From a virus, in the IMG/VR virus record IMGVR_UViG_3300024344_000087, positions 1 through 30,082 of that record: 30,082 nt of DNA; one strand, given 5' to 3'. The notes under the pieces are model-generated. The model was given only the letters and a program-made list of their open reading frames with translations, did not search any database and was not told the origin of the DNA. Numbering within the stretch: position 1 is the first letter of the stretch; every line of letters starts with the position of its first letter. A program made the translations under genes and the position numbers. Below are positions 5,656-10,156 of the stretch, piece after piece.

Positions 5656-7327
5656 ATCTAATGAAAACCCAATGTTCCGTTCTAAATTTAGTGAAGATAT
5701 ATTTAAACAGAAGTACGCGCACCAAGGTTGCTATACTTGGGAGGATCTATCGGCAACCTTAGTAGAAGATGTTTGTGGAGACTTGTTAGTTACAGACGAA
5801 AAGGAATATCTAAAAGAAATTATCAGTGACTTAAAGTTTATTCCCGGTGGTAGGTATCTTTACTATGCTGGTCGTACCAGTAAGTTTTTTAATAATTGTT
5901 TCTTGCTCAAAGCAGAGGAAGACACAAGGGAAGATTGGGCTGATCTTAGTTGGAAGTCTGAGTCCTGTTTGATGACAGGCGGTGGTATTGGTATTGATTA
6001 CTCTGTCTATAGGCCAGAAGGTTCTGGTCTTTCTGGAACAGGAGGCATAGCTAGTGGGCCTATCCCTAAGATGCAGATGATTAACGAGATAGGTAGAAGG
6101 GTAATGCAGGGTGGAGCTAGACGTTCTGCTATCTACGCTTCTCTTAACTGGCAGCACAGGGACATAGACAAATTTCTAAAGTGTAAGAACTGGTATGATA
6201 TGCCTGTTGGCAATACTGGATTCAACATTGGACAGGTGAAGGAGCAAGACTTTAACTTCCCTGCCCCTATGGATATGACAAATGTATCTGTCAACTATGA
6301 TACAGATTGGTTACTTAATTACTGGAAGACAGGAGATGCAGGAGATGTCTTTAGGACTAATGTACGTCAGGCTCTTAGAACAGCAGAGCCAGGATTCTCA
6401 TTTAATTTCTTCGATAAGGAAAAGGAAACGCTACGGAACGCCTGTACAGAAGTATCTAGTGCCGATGATTCTGACGTTTGTAATCTTGGGTCTATTAACA
6501 TGGGCCGCATTGAAGATATATCTGAGTTCTCAGACGTAGTAGAACTGGCTACTAAGTTTTTAATATGCGGAACACTAAAAGCAAAACTTCCCTATGAAAA
6601 AGTATATGATATTAGAGAGAAGAACAGGCGATTAGGACTAGGATTAATGGGTATGCATGAGTGGTTAATTAAGAAGGGAAGTAAGTATGAAGTTACTGAC
6701 GAGTTGCATCAATGGTTATCTGTATATAAAGGATGTTCTGATTCAACTAGTATTTCTTACGCTGATTCTCTCAGTCTTTCCCGCCCTGTTGCTAATAGAG
6801 CTATTGCTCCTACTGGTTCTATTGGAATTCTTGCGGGTACTTCGACAGGGGTGGAACCTATTTTTGCAGTTGCTTATAAAAGGAGGTATCTTGGGGCAGG
6901 GCAAAAGTGGAAGTACCAATATGTAGTAGACTCAGCCGCCCAAGAAATAATAGACCTCTATGGTATCAAGCCTGACAAGATAGAGTCAGCCCTTGACTTG
7001 GCAGGAGACTATAAGCGCAGGATAAAGTTCCAAGCAAACGTACAGGACTATGTAGATATGTCAATATCAAGCACGATTAACCTACCATCATGGGGAAGTA
7101 AATTAAATAATGAAGATACTGTTGATGAGTTTGCCGATACTCTTGCCTCTTATGCTCACAGGCTGCGAGGTTTCACAGTGTACCCTGACGGTTGCAGAGG
7201 AGGACAACCCCTTAGCTCTGTGCCTTACAGTGAAGCTGTAGATAAGTTAGGAGAAGTCTTTGAGGAGAATGTAGAGACACATGATATATGTGACATCACT
7301 GGACATGGAGGAAGTTGCGGAGTATGA
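5645..7327 (+). CDS. Ribonucleotide reductase, probably B12-dependent class II type
   Basis: Reduces ribonucleotides to deoxyribonucleotides. From the ATG at 5645 the protein is 560 aa. Active-site pattern: C85 (FFNNCFLL), N265-A-C267-T-E269, C279 (VCNLGSINM), and a PTGSIGILAGTSTG segment with VEPIF after it. The C-terminus carries the redox pair C549 and C558 (ICDITGHGGSCGV), as in enzymes recharged by thioredoxin or glutaredoxin. There is no N-terminal ATP cone and no beta-subunit (NrdB) gene in the window, which favours adenosylcobalamin-dependent class II. Short podovirus RNRs have been hard to classify, so the class is inference. An in-frame TTG at 5609 adds a poor N-terminus and was not used; ATG 5672 is an alternative. 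The stop overlaps the next start (ATGA). Confidence 0.9.
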   Translation: MTFKSNENPMFRSKFSEDIFKQKYAHQGCYTWEDLSATLVEDVCGDLLVTDEKEYLKEIISDLKFIPGGRYLYYAGRTSKFFNNCFLLKAEEDTREDWADLSWKSESCLMTGGGIGIDYSVYRPEGSGLSGTGGIASGPIPKMQMINEIGRRVMQGGARRSAIYASLNWQHRDIDKFLKCKNWYDMPVGNTGFNIGQVKEQDFNFPAPMDMTNVSVNYDTDWLLNYWKTGDAGDVFRTNVRQALRTAEPGFSFNFFDKEKETLRNACTEVSSADDSDVCNLGSINMGRIEDISEFSDVVELATKFLICGTLKAKLPYEKVYDIREKNRRLGLGLMGMHEWLIKKGSKYEVTDELHQWLSVYKGCSDSTSISYADSLSLSRPVANRAIAPTGSIGILAGTSTGVEPIFAVAYKRRYLGAGQKWKYQYVVDSAAQEIIDLYGIKPDKIESALDLAGDYKRRIKFQANVQDYVDMSISSTINLPSWGSKLNNEDTVDEFADTLASYAHRLRGFTVYPDGCRGGQPLSSVPYSEAVDKLGEVFEENVETHDICDITGHGGSCGV

Positions 7328-7650
7328 TTACCATAACTCCAGAAGCAGACAAACATCTTTGTTCTATCATAGAAAGGGAACAAGCTGATGGAGTACTTTT
7401 ATCTGTTAAGGGTGGTGGTTGTGCTGGATTTACATATGACTGGTCTGTTGTTAAAGAACCGTCTGGAGAAGCTATACCTCTCAGCAAAGGAACATTATAT
7501 ATAGATCCTCTGGCAGTCATGTATGTAATAGGAACTGTGCTTCAATATAAAAAAGATTTGTTTGGGACTATACTATCTTTAGACAATCCTAATGTAGCTT
7601 CTGCGTGTGGGTGCGGAGAAAGCTTTTCTTTAAAGCAGGGAGAAAGTTAA
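7324..7650 (+). CDS. A-type iron-sulfur carrier protein (IscA/HesB/ErpA family)
   Basis: 108 aa, the usual family length. The three conserved cysteines are C33 in GGGCAGFTYDW and C95-G-C97 in SACGCGESF, with the standard 61-residue interval. From the family, it holds or passes a 2Fe-2S or 4Fe-4S cluster to target enzymes. GGAGG at 7307-7311 precedes ATG 7324, which forms an ATGA overlap with the reductase stop; a TTG nine bases earlier is less likely. Its obvious local client is the four-Cys exonuclease encoded upstream; class II reductases do not carry Fe-S clusters. Support of host Fe-S enzymes during infection is also possible. Such carriers are known in some marine phages. Confidence 0.92.
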   Translation: MITITPEADKHLCSIIEREQADGVLLSVKGGGCAGFTYDWSVVKEPSGEAIPLSKGTLYIDPLAVMYVIGTVLQYKKDLFGTILSLDNPNVASACGCGESFSLKQGES

Positions 7651-7652
7651 TA

Positions 7653-8213
7653 ATGTATGGTAGTGTATGGTACTCTGGAACAACTGTACCAGATATTAAA
7701 GAAGACTTTTGCCAAGCAACTATTAAACTTAAAGACACTTTGGGTAAACAAGAAGGTACGGTCAATAATGGTAATAGAGATATACAGGTTAGATCAAATA
7801 AAATTTTTACCATAGATAGCCCAGAGTTTAAAACACTTGTCTTTGAATGGACTAAGAAAGCCAATGAGGAACAAGGTTGGAACTACGATGTTACAGGTAT
7901 AGAAAATCTGCAACTCTCTGAGTATAATATAGGTGACAAGTATAGTTGGCACTTAGATATTAGACCAGAAGATCCTTGCAGGAAACTTTCTTTTAATGTA
8001 GTTCTTAATGAAGACTACGAAGGGGGAGACTTTCAATTCTCTTGGGGTTCACCAAGCGCATCCTATAAGCGCAGGGTCATAGCTGAACCTCAATTAAAGC
8101 TAGCTGGTAGGATGATTGTCTTCCCCTCATATTATTATCACAGAGTAAAACCAGTGACTAAAGGTATACGATATAGTTTGACAGGGTGGATTACTGGCCC
8201 ACCATTTAGATAG
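7653..8213 (+). CDS. 2-oxoglutarate/Fe(II)-dependent oxygenase (prolyl hydroxylase-like)
   Basis: 186 aa. The iron triad is H100-x-D102 in YSWHLDI and H163 in YYYHRVKP; R173 in KGIRYSL is placed to bind 2-oxoglutarate. KLSFNVVLNEDYEGGDF and GRMIVFPSYYYH are the usual double-stranded beta-helix strands of PKHD/P4H-type hydroxylases. The substrate is unknown; in marine phages such enzymes are proposed to modify proteins, DNA bases or surface sugars, none of which can be decided here. GGGAG about 12 bases ahead of ATG 7653 sets the start, 2 bases after the carrier gene stop. It needs Fe(II), like its neighbours, so the three metal-linked genes may be co-expressed. Confidence 0.9.
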   Translation: MYGSVWYSGTTVPDIKEDFCQATIKLKDTLGKQEGTVNNGNRDIQVRSNKIFTIDSPEFKTLVFEWTKKANEEQGWNYDVTGIENLQLSEYNIGDKYSWHLDIRPEDPCRKLSFNVVLNEDYEGGDFQFSWGSPSASYKRRVIAEPQLKLAGRMIVFPSYYYHRVKPVTKGIRYSLTGWITGPPFR

Positions 8214-8222
8214 GAAAATAAA

Positions 8223-8504
8223 ATGGATATAGGAAAGATAACAGAACCGTTAATGCAGATAAATATAATACAATGGTGTGACACTAAAGAACAGATACTA
8301 GATCTAATGACGTTGTCTGTAATTACATTTCAAGATATGTTAGAAGCTGGATGTCATTGGACTTCACCCAAGCTACCTATAAAGGCTGACTTACTGGAAG
8401 TAGTTTCTGAGGTACATTTAAGTACAGCTATATTCCATCTTGTTAAATTTAAGTCAGAGTATATAGATACAGGAATAGGATACGCATTGCTAAAAGTTAT
8501 GTAG
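8223..8504 (+). CDS. Hypothetical protein, last gene of the early module
   Basis: 93 aa, no recognised domain. Predicted helical, with two cysteines and no signal peptide or clear membrane segment. AGGA lies 7 bases ahead of the ATG, and the gene follows the oxygenase by 9 bases in the same direction, so it is probably in that operon. Its stop codon lies inside the last codons of the oppositely oriented coiled-coil gene (8-bp tail-to-tail overlap). Function unknown. Confidence 0.65.
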   Translation: MDIGKITEPLMQINIIQWCDTKEQILDLMTLSVITFQDMLEAGCHWTSPKLPIKADLLEVVSEVHLSTAIFHLVKFKSEYIDTGIGYALLKVM

Positions 8505-8835
8505 ATCCAGGGTGTTTACCATTATGCATATTACTAAGCTTATCTACTTCTTTTCTTAGAGACTGTAACTCTGCTAACATACTGGCTGTTTCCCTAGCCC
8601 TAGCTTCTCTTTCTTTGGGAGCTAACATATCAGATATTACACCTAATCTCTGATCGTGGTTCTGTATGGTAACTTCCTGTCCGTCGGTAGATCTATCAAG
8701 GTGTTTAAGACGAGCTTCAATATCCTTGTTATGCTCTATAACATTGGCTAACTTTTGCTTCACAATTACAAAGGCTGATACGACACTGACAAGCATACCC
8801 GCCAGTGTCAATATCATTCTCGTATCTATTTCCAT
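8497..8835 (-). CDS. Membrane-anchored coiled-coil protein, spanin-like candidate
   Basis: 112 aa. One membrane segment near the N-terminus (about residues 8-25), then a long charged heptad-like region through residue 105 and a short PGST tail. This is the plan of an inner-membrane spanin (Rz) or a class III holin: N-terminus inside, coiled coil in the periplasm. It is the last gene of the late strand, in the lysis cluster after the hydrolase and holin candidates, which supports a lysis role. No partner lipoprotein (Rz1-type, with lipobox) was found nested in or next to it. Assignment is by architecture only. Its 3' end overlaps the converging early-module gene. Confidence 0.6.
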   Translation of the reverse strand: MEIDTRMILTLAGMLVSVVSAFVIVKQKLANVIEHNKDIEARLKHLDRSTDGQEVTIQNHDQRLGVISDMLAPKEREARARETASMLAELQSLRKEVDKLSNMHNGKHPGST

Positions 8836-8844
8836 GATAGACCA

Positions 8845-8973
8845 CTATTGACAGTTACACTTAGTACAGTCACACTCGTCACATTTACAGGAGGATTCAC
8901 TAACATGAGGATCACAACAGTGACACTCTTGGTTGTCGCAATTGCAGTCTATACACTTTACTTTACTGTTCAT
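8845..8973 (-). CDS. Cysteine-rich, metallothionein-like small protein (42 aa)
   Basis: A 42-aa protein with 12 cysteines and two histidines and no Phe, Trp or Tyr. Cys positions are 7, 10, 12, 17, 19, 20 and 29, 31, 34, 36, 39, 41. They form two six-Cys clusters joined by an eight-residue linker (DPHVSESS). The second cluster is regular: CxC-xx-CxC-xx-CxC, with K, D, E, T and N between. Density and spacing are those of metallothioneins and other Zn/Cu/Cd thiolate proteins, though it does not match the SmtA layout. The ORF fills the otherwise empty gap between the holin candidate (TAG 6 bases upstream, same frame) and the coiled-coil gene (9 bases downstream). The ribosome-binding site (AGGTAG) is weak. 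Metal binding is inferred; a disulfide-rich exported peptide is unlikely, as no signal peptide is seen. Confidence 0.72.
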   Translation of the reverse strand: MNSKVKCIDCNCDNQECHCCDPHVSESSCKCDECDCTKCNCQ

Positions 8974-8979
8974 ACTTTT

Positions 8980-9417
8980 CTACCTAGCGTTCTTAACCAT
9001 TGAAGCACCAAAGTACAAACCTACGATAGCTGAGAGCAAGTGTGTATCCAATGGTGTAATGACTAAGCCTTTCATAGTGTGCCATATGGTATCATCAGCA
9101 CCGTCAAAGAATAAAAACCCTGGACTCCATTGGGTGTAACCTACGGTCACTCCTACTTCGGGCCAGAATACAGCGATAACTTTAGGCCATATAACTATAG
9201 CTCCTACTGCTGCCAAAGCTATTATTCTTCTTGTAACTTGAAAGCCTTTATTCTCGTATCGTCTGGCTAAGTCTGTTGCCTTACTCTGCGCTGCCAGACC
9301 ATCTATAGATCTTTGGAAAGCATCTTGTTTAGCTTTCTGACTCTGGCCCCAGATGGTCATCAAACCACCTAGCAAACCAGATCCCAACATTGTAATAAGT
9401 TCTAAAGGTATCCCCAT
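8980..9417 (-). CDS. Three-TM membrane protein, holin candidate
   Basis: 145 aa with three hydrophobic stretches: about residues 7-23 (ITMLGSGLLGGLMTIW), 65-85 (IIALAAVGAIVIW and onward), and 125-142 (THLLSAIVGLYFGASM). A charged helical loop (28-63) separates the first two. It lies directly after the SleB-like hydrolase and before the coiled-coil gene, so it is likely the membrane pore former for lysis. The holin assignment is by position and membrane topology, not by a family motif; similar proteins in marine phages are often only called structural or membrane proteins. AAGGA lies upstream in the 34-bp gap. The stop TAG is followed after two codons, in frame, by the ATG of the Cys-rich ORF. 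Confidence 0.65.
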   Translation of the reverse strand: MGIPLELITMLGSGLLGGLMTIWGQSQKAKQDAFQRSIDGLAAQSKATDLARRYENKGFQVTRRIIALAAVGAIVIWPKVIAVFWPEVGVTVGYTQWSPGFLFFDGADDTIWHTMKGLVITPLDTHLLSAIVGLYFGASMVKNAR

Positions 9418-9451: not shown

Positions 9452-10156
9452 TTATCTTTTAGGTTTAAAAACAGGTAATGGAGTTGGTGGAATTCGTTTA
9501 GATTTATCCGTTATTAAATCATAATAATTATGATCTTTTACCTTACCTTTAAATCTATACATACCAGATTTAACTCTTCTTTTAAATTGTCCATCTTTTT
9601 CCCATTCTTTTGGATTAGCAAAAAAAAGTGTTCCTTCTGCTACATCTTTTAAATCACCTGCTAATAATTCATCTGTAACTTTTTCAGCAACTTTCCATTT
9701 AGGTTGATCTTTGCGAAAAACCTTCATTTTTTCGGGCTTCCATCCTTCAAATTGATTATCTGCTGATATTACTTTTACATAAGGAGTTGGATTTTTTTCT
9801 GTACCTCCTCCAGTTACCTTACCTTTTCCATATTTAGATCTGTTATTTATTATACTAGCTACAAGTCTCATACCATCTTCACCTTGTGAACCAGCCTCAG
9901 CTAAAATAAGCCTAATTATTTTTTCTCTATCATCCACTCCTACAGGTTGTTTTTCATCTGTTCCTAACAAACCACGAAAAAATGGTCTTGTCTTTCCTAT
10001 AAGAACTTCCTCCGTGGATGGCATAGAAGGTCTTAATAGATAATCCCAAATACTAGGCTCACTCACTTTAGAAACTCCTTGTATAGCGTAGGGTAGCAGT
10101 AGGATTAAAGCCAGCATTAGTAAGCATATTTTTAACACTTGCCGTAAGCTCCCCAC
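9452..10156 (-). CDS. SleB-like cell wall hydrolase (endolysin) with N-terminal membrane/signal segment
   Basis: 234 aa. Residues 7-25 are hydrophobic (a signal or signal-anchor-release segment). The Hydrolase_2/SleB domain starts near residue 76: ILAEAGSQGEDGM with E87 as likely catalytic acid, then VASIINNR (99-106), ADNQFEGW in the middle, and FFANP near residue 180 followed by GKVKDHNYY. This family cleaves peptidoglycan glycan strands; here it is the probable endolysin, though a virion-borne role cannot be excluded. The start is a GTG at 10156 with AGGA nearby and an 89-bp overlap with the preceding gene; ATG 10117 is an alternative that shortens the hydrophobic segment. The coding sequence is visibly AT-richer than the overlapping gene upstream. 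Confidence 0.82.
   Translation of the reverse strand: MGSLRQVLKICLLMLALILLLPYAIQGVSKVSEPSIWDYLLRPSMPSTEEVLIGKTRPFFRGLLGTDEKQPVGVDDREKIIRLILAEAGSQGEDGMRLVASIINNRSKYGKGKVTGGGTEKNPTPYVKVISADNQFEGWKPEKMKVFRKDQPKWKVAEKVTDELLAGDLKDVAEGTLFFANPKEWEKDGQFKRRVKSGMYRFKGKVKDHNYYDLITDKSKRIPPTPLPVFKPKR

Follow-up and report, generated by a model that had tools for sequence, protein, structure and literature searches.

A family of small, cysteine-rich, metallothionein-like proteins encoded by uncultured marine phages

Repeats of the CxC type are typical of metallothionein clusters and not of zinc fingers, and in the beta domain of mammalian metallothionein-2 (MT-2) nine cysteines accommodate three divalent ions. 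MT-2 joins this beta domain (PDB 2MHU) to an alpha domain. The bacterial metallothioneins BmtA and SmtA (PF02069; PDB 1JJD, 6GV7) are small cytoplasmic proteins combining Cys and His, with a CxCxxCxC motif and a GATA-like zinc-finger segment (YCSxxCAxxH), and a six-Cys zinc cluster also defines the Zn2Cys6 proteins such as Leu3 (PDB 2ER8). We found no earlier description of a phage metallothionein in the openly searchable literature (subscription journals lie outside it).

The window analysed here is a whole IMG/VR record of 30,082 bases, with the gene content of a podovirus-like marine phage: a DnaB-type helicase/primase, ThyX, PolA, an SSB-like protein, a GIY-YIG nuclease, an exonuclease-like protein and a class II ribonucleotide reductase (RNR), after which the late genes run convergently. 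The ThyX, PolA and exonuclease identities are those we take from the sequence, without a profile scan. On the minus strand, an ORF starting with ATG (8845-8973) encodes in 42 codons the product MNSKVKCIDCNCDNQECHCCDPHVSESSCKCDECDCTKCNCQ. Its Cys content is 29%, in two groups of six (positions 7, 10, 12, 17, 19, 20 and 29, 31, 34, 36, 39, 41), with five CxC and one CC; two His (18 and 23) complete the set of potential ligands, and Phe, Trp and Tyr are absent. The totals of 12 Cys and two His without aromatic residues are those of the preliminary description, and re-reading the sequence returned the same. The first cluster, C-x2-C-x-C-x4-C-x-C-C (C7-C20), lies at 8914-8955 and the second, CxCxxCxCxxCxC (C29-C41), at 8851-8889, both on the minus strand; the pattern of the second has no other match in the record.

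The features by which a sequence points to the metallothionein class are found here, namely a length below 100 aa, a Cys content of about 15-35% arranged as CxC, CC or CxxC, few or no aromatic residues, and Cys conserved by selection; the class is further defined by the binding of several d10 metal ions in thiolate clusters and by an effect on the cell's metal tolerance or metal pools. By its predicted architecture the protein is metallothionein-like, and it falls outside every known metallothionein family tested. It is alike to BmtA and SmtA in size, cytoplasmic character, joint use of Cys and His and a CxCxxCxC motif, which over a short stretch matches the Pseudomonas metallothionein (CxCxDCHCK), but it is phage-borne, orders its Cys differently and, as the family alignment shows, has no GATA-like zinc-finger segment (YCSxxCAxxH) between its Cys clusters. 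PF02069 matched neither the window (E ≤ 1) nor 14 records of the phage family (E ≤ 10), in a search whose control passed the cut-off in one of 14 known genomes. Homology to the Pseudomonas protein was rejected: only two of 15 members (L043 and L096) beat shuffles with fixed Cys, at 1-2 per 1000, which is unconvincing after many comparisons.

The MT-2 beta domain has the CxCxxCxCxxC spacing of the C-terminal cluster in the window (SCKCKECKCTSC versus SCKCDECDCTKC) and likewise no aromatic residues, although MT-2 has two domains and the window protein is a single 42-aa chain. The alignment surpassed 500 of 500 full shuffles and became marginal once the Cys positions were fixed (43 of 1000 shuffles as good), so that the resemblance reflects convergent Cys spacing and not homology. 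A profile search of solved structures returned only Zn2Cys6 proteins, at non-significant E-values of 0.07-0.1 (best, Leu3, 0.069). A cluster of six Cys, which binds zinc in the Zn2Cys6 proteins, is common to both, but Zn2Cys6 proteins have no CxC repeats and the phage protein has no DNA-binding linker. Five relatives show weak similarity over the C-terminal cluster to phrog_27696, a 44-aa phage family of unknown function (best E 0.019), which the window protein itself does not match. No family of Pfam, NCBIfam or PHROGs matched the window protein at E ≤ 10, in searches whose HMMER filters may conceal faint matches of biased sequences. The Cys-rich phage family is previously unnamed and absent from the protein-family libraries searched, probably owing to the shortness and biased composition of its members, and annotation overlooks it for that reason. 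AlphaFold gave no confident apo fold for the window protein (pLDDT 59), as may be expected of a peptide folded by metal, without being proof of one.

As the preliminary description had stated, the ORF fits between two genes of its own strand. The upstream one (8980-9417) is 6 nt away and the downstream one (8497-8835) 9 nt. The upstream gene encodes a putative, holin-like membrane protein of 145 aa with 118 IMG/VR relatives, a single strong transmembrane (TM) segment by hydropathy and a PHROG match to a family of unknown function only (phrog_38283); its identity as a holin is plausible. The downstream product (112 aa), with an N-terminal TM segment by hydropathy and a likely coiled coil, is spanin- or holin-like according to weak PHROG matches to an Rz-like spanin (0.0012) and a holin (0.004). 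Further upstream, 9452-10156 (minus strand) encodes an endolysin, a SleB-type cell wall hydrolase (PF07486, 2.1e-7; phrog_938 endolysin, 3.3e-9) with an N-terminal TM or signal segment. The placement of the ORF in a lysis cluster beside a holin stands as regards the hydrolase nearby, and the holin itself stays putative. Hydropathy revealed no TM or signal segment in the 42-aa protein. In Skadi phages, the homologue of the 145-aa protein (e.g. L088:3001-3432) is labelled 'peptidase M15' in GenBank, probably a misannotation, for which the window copy offers no Pfam support.

Other genes of the neighbourhood deserve mention in their own right. Directly behind the class II RNR, the window carries an A-type Fe-S carrier of the IscA/ErpA type (7315-7650, plus strand; PF01521, 1.3e-13), unusual for a small phage, of which no relative was found in 80 related contigs. 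A 2OG-Fe(II) oxygenase lies near the metallothionein-like gene in both phage lineages discussed below (window 7605-8213, plus strand; L110:3024-3653, minus strand); a specific link between the two genes was dropped, the oxygenase being common in relatives devoid of the Cys-rich gene too. In one contig, an Hsp20 small heat-shock protein (L083:6848-7279, minus strand; PF00011) is encoded between the metallothionein-like gene and the oxygenase, and in Pelagibacter phages HTVC103P and HTVC104P, too, the holin-like gene has Hsp20 as a direct neighbour.

Among the confirmed relatives of the holin-like gene, 80 loci (823 kb) were examined. Directly behind this gene, 11 of the 80 contigs carry an ORF of 31-68 aa with ten Cys, found nowhere else in the 823 kb, so that in the window and in all 11 ORF-bearing contigs of its lineage the holin-like gene is the upstream neighbour; in several contigs the ATG overlaps the end of that gene by 11 nt. 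Where length allows, these contigs have in common with the window the convergent block of RNR, exonuclease, GIY-YIG, SSB and PolA genes. In L033, L037 and L038 the Cys-rich ORF is absent and the holin-like gene is followed immediately by the next one (LLWNNDG...), and in L041, L043 and L049 the ORF lies between the same two genes. Being cleanly present or absent between them, it is an accessory unit of one gene. No additional cases came from a scan that started from the L083 holin-like protein.

Chance offers no equivalent. Markov windows as long as the real one gave at most nine Cys per 42 stop-free residues, whether of first order (100 windows) or of second order (400), and in the second-order set the ten-Cys pattern occurred 0 times; the window deprived of 8845-8973 reaches at most eight. 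The twelve observed agree with the earlier statement that such a density is very unlikely in random sequence.

A profile built from members with terminal tails matched 38 contigs and extended the family to a second lineage, which is HMO-2011-type by its TerL (52-57% identity to HMO-2011-type isolates, tested on L110) and encodes, in seven of ten records tested, a coat protein about 50% identical to that of HMO-2011. This lineage accounts for 34 contigs with the family, five of them reached through the leader RNA described below. In a third context (L242), a single member of 33 aa with nine Cys lies two genes downstream of an endolysin of the M15 peptidase type; a second Cys-rich ORF of 53 aa without Pfam match (L242:1138-1299, plus strand; CLSCGC...CVDCKCVTDGDCCQGECG) stands between the two. 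All members come from uncultured contigs, many of them redundant, and the family, as defined by sequence, spans no fewer than two groups of marine viruses, both uncultured and unrelated to each other. Its core reads C-x2-C-x-C-x3/4-C-x-C, a linker of 3-13 residues, then C-x2-C-x-C-x2-C-x-C. Relatives have 10-11 Cys in 31-81 aa, and many bear conserved tails with aromatic residues (YQGPYAAF..., MYKR...GWxKPTVEME); the window copy, with two extra Cys in the linker, and L073 consist of the Cys core only.

In HMO-2011-type phages the gene stands at the head of the packaging operon, with no lysis gene recognised beside it. A lysis protein would be an invariable part of its module and targeted to the membrane or periplasm; here the product has no such targeting segment, the gene is patchy and its neighbours differ in the second lineage. 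Owing to this patchiness (11 of 80) and its place heading the packaging operon, the gene is best regarded as a late accessory gene and not as part of the lysis machine.

Outside IMG/VR, the search was less productive. A tblastn search of the peptide against isolate phages gave no match, with a low-complexity filter that may mask the peptide, and the family HMM found nothing in 20 isolate phage records, in a run without positive control. Isolate matches to CxCxxCxC alone look like chance, as reversed-pattern controls match too and the profile finds none. The sole match from two scans of bacterial genomes (L139) was discarded, lying out of frame inside a dnaX-like gene, and 46 further bacterial genomes contained no family member, a weak test. 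Within IMG/VR, broad Cys-pattern scans returned mostly low-complexity or antisense artefacts and one true new member, that of L242.

In 25 distinct genes the ten core Cys columns are kept, with one exception, the unaligned first Cys of L073, and TGC and TGT interchange at all ten. Most informative pairs of relatives have a dN/dS of 0.05-0.2, the window copy being too divergent for an estimate of its own. The 42-aa ORF is a genuine conserved phage gene. Of the checks proposed in the preliminary description, conservation at the locus was borne out in 11 contigs with all ten core Cys, and a dN/dS below 1 was obtained among the relatives; the occurrence in HMO-2011-type phages goes beyond what it had proposed. 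It had named as grounds against its claim the lack of such an ORF or frame-disrupting changes in relatives; no computable ground of this kind emerged.

In the phylogenetic tree, the window, L069 and L073 form long branches and most forks are weak. One sub-family with 100/100 support contains members from both phage lineages, a minimum of two switches of phage lineage has to be assumed, and grouping the window lineage into a single clade is rejected (p-AU 0.026). These results support an exchange of the Cys-rich gene between phage lineages.

The HMO-2011-type gene, which begins (M[S/T/P]xYQGPYAAF...) 12 codons before the start initially assigned to it, is preceded by a sigma70-like promoter (TTGACA-N17-TATAAT) and then a leader of about 90 nt, located between promoter and gene at L110:3840-3930, L120:3840-3930, L105:3846-3936 and in 28 more contigs. 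Its predicted fold is more stable than those of shuffled sequences (z -2.4 to -4.6). In an alignment fitted to the structure, 93% of pair cells are kept and 14 cells are changed on both sides, against 1-5 in slid controls; 0 of 500 shuffles reach the observed cells or covariation score, and the pairs with double changes (4 versus 3.4 in shuffles) do not exceed them. Scanning the whole of IMG/VR for its 5' half retrieved 32 contigs, 31 with the gene 103-119 nt downstream and one chance match; all 31 true copies, one per record, precede the metallothionein-like gene. The leader matched nothing in Rfam, including known riboswitches, and was not convincingly present in ten HMO-2011-type isolates. 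It is possibly a cis-regulatory RNA; because the gene also opens its operon, the leader may instead be a feature of that operon. A further reading, in which abundant marine phages would encode metallothioneins of their own and the HMO-2011-type gene would be controlled by a structured 5' leader of a new kind that responds to metal, such as a riboswitch, with the virus thereby sensing and buffering host metal during infection, is improbable.

We favour, with a probability of roughly 0.6, a late, cytoplasmic thiolate metal buffer or protector. Metal binding is likely in view of the Cys arrangement: the 10-12 thiolates would fold around several metal ions, either divalent (Zn(II), Cd(II)) or Cu(I), in metallothionein fashion. 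With the MT-2 beta domain as a guide, one chain should take up some three to four Zn/Cd, or a larger number of Cu(I). As the protein has no signal or TM segment, it would reside in the reducing cytoplasm, where thiols bind metal rather than form disulfides. Late infection, the time at which metalloproteins of the host are broken down, is the likely time of action because the gene lies among late genes in the two main lineages; this position suggests late transcription, with the gene closing the lysis-gene operon in the window lineage and opening the packaging operon in HMO-2011-type phages. There, the protein could plausibly buffer free metal released or mis-sited during host proteome dismantling, and so keep phage enzymes and assembly working until lysis.

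The main rival is a structural zinc miniprotein, holding two or three Zn in a fixed fold and binding a host or phage partner (e.g. RNA polymerase, a nuclease or a lysis protein) instead of buffering. It owes this rank to the many relatives with conserved N- and C-terminal aromatic tails, which would be superfluous in a pure metal buffer and hint at a binding partner, and the weak profile matches to Zn2Cys6 transcription factors point the same way. We nonetheless hold it to be unlikely: the window copy and L073 lack the tails, the linker varies and in the window has two additional Cys, unlike a rigid site, and the CxC repeats are characteristic of metallothionein clusters. A thiol redox agent, serving as cytoplasmic dithiol buffer or electron donor for the phage class II RNR or as late protection against oxidation, would suit the RNR encoded next door in the window lineage, and cobaviruses have a glutaredoxin beside their RNR (PMC6775973). 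Such a role seems improbable, given that the RNR is equally present in many relatives without the Cys-rich gene, that the protein has the fold of neither a thioredoxin nor a glutaredoxin, and that ten invariant Cys with fixed CxC spacing fit metal clusters better than redox pairs.

Adjacent lysis genes in two of three contexts might suggest a disulfide-rich peptide with an extracytoplasmic role at lysis, but without a targeting segment, and with no lysis gene recognised alongside in HMO-2011-type phages, the chances of this are very slim. Most CxC-pattern matches in IMG/VR being antisense or low-complexity, a spurious ORF or an antisense artefact of another gene had also to be considered. Conservation of Cys through synonymous codon changes, low dN/dS, the fixed locus, single-gene presence or absence and occurrence in separate phage lineages together refute this reading, judged on sequence, with the one reservation that the window copy, and only it, might be a relic; hardly any weight is left to it.

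Should the proteins prove to bind metal, they would be the first phage metallothioneins as far as can be searched, in two groups of marine phages. What becomes of the host's zinc, copper and iron when a virus lyses the cell could then be tested directly, and metal homeostasis would join the list of what marine phages manipulate.
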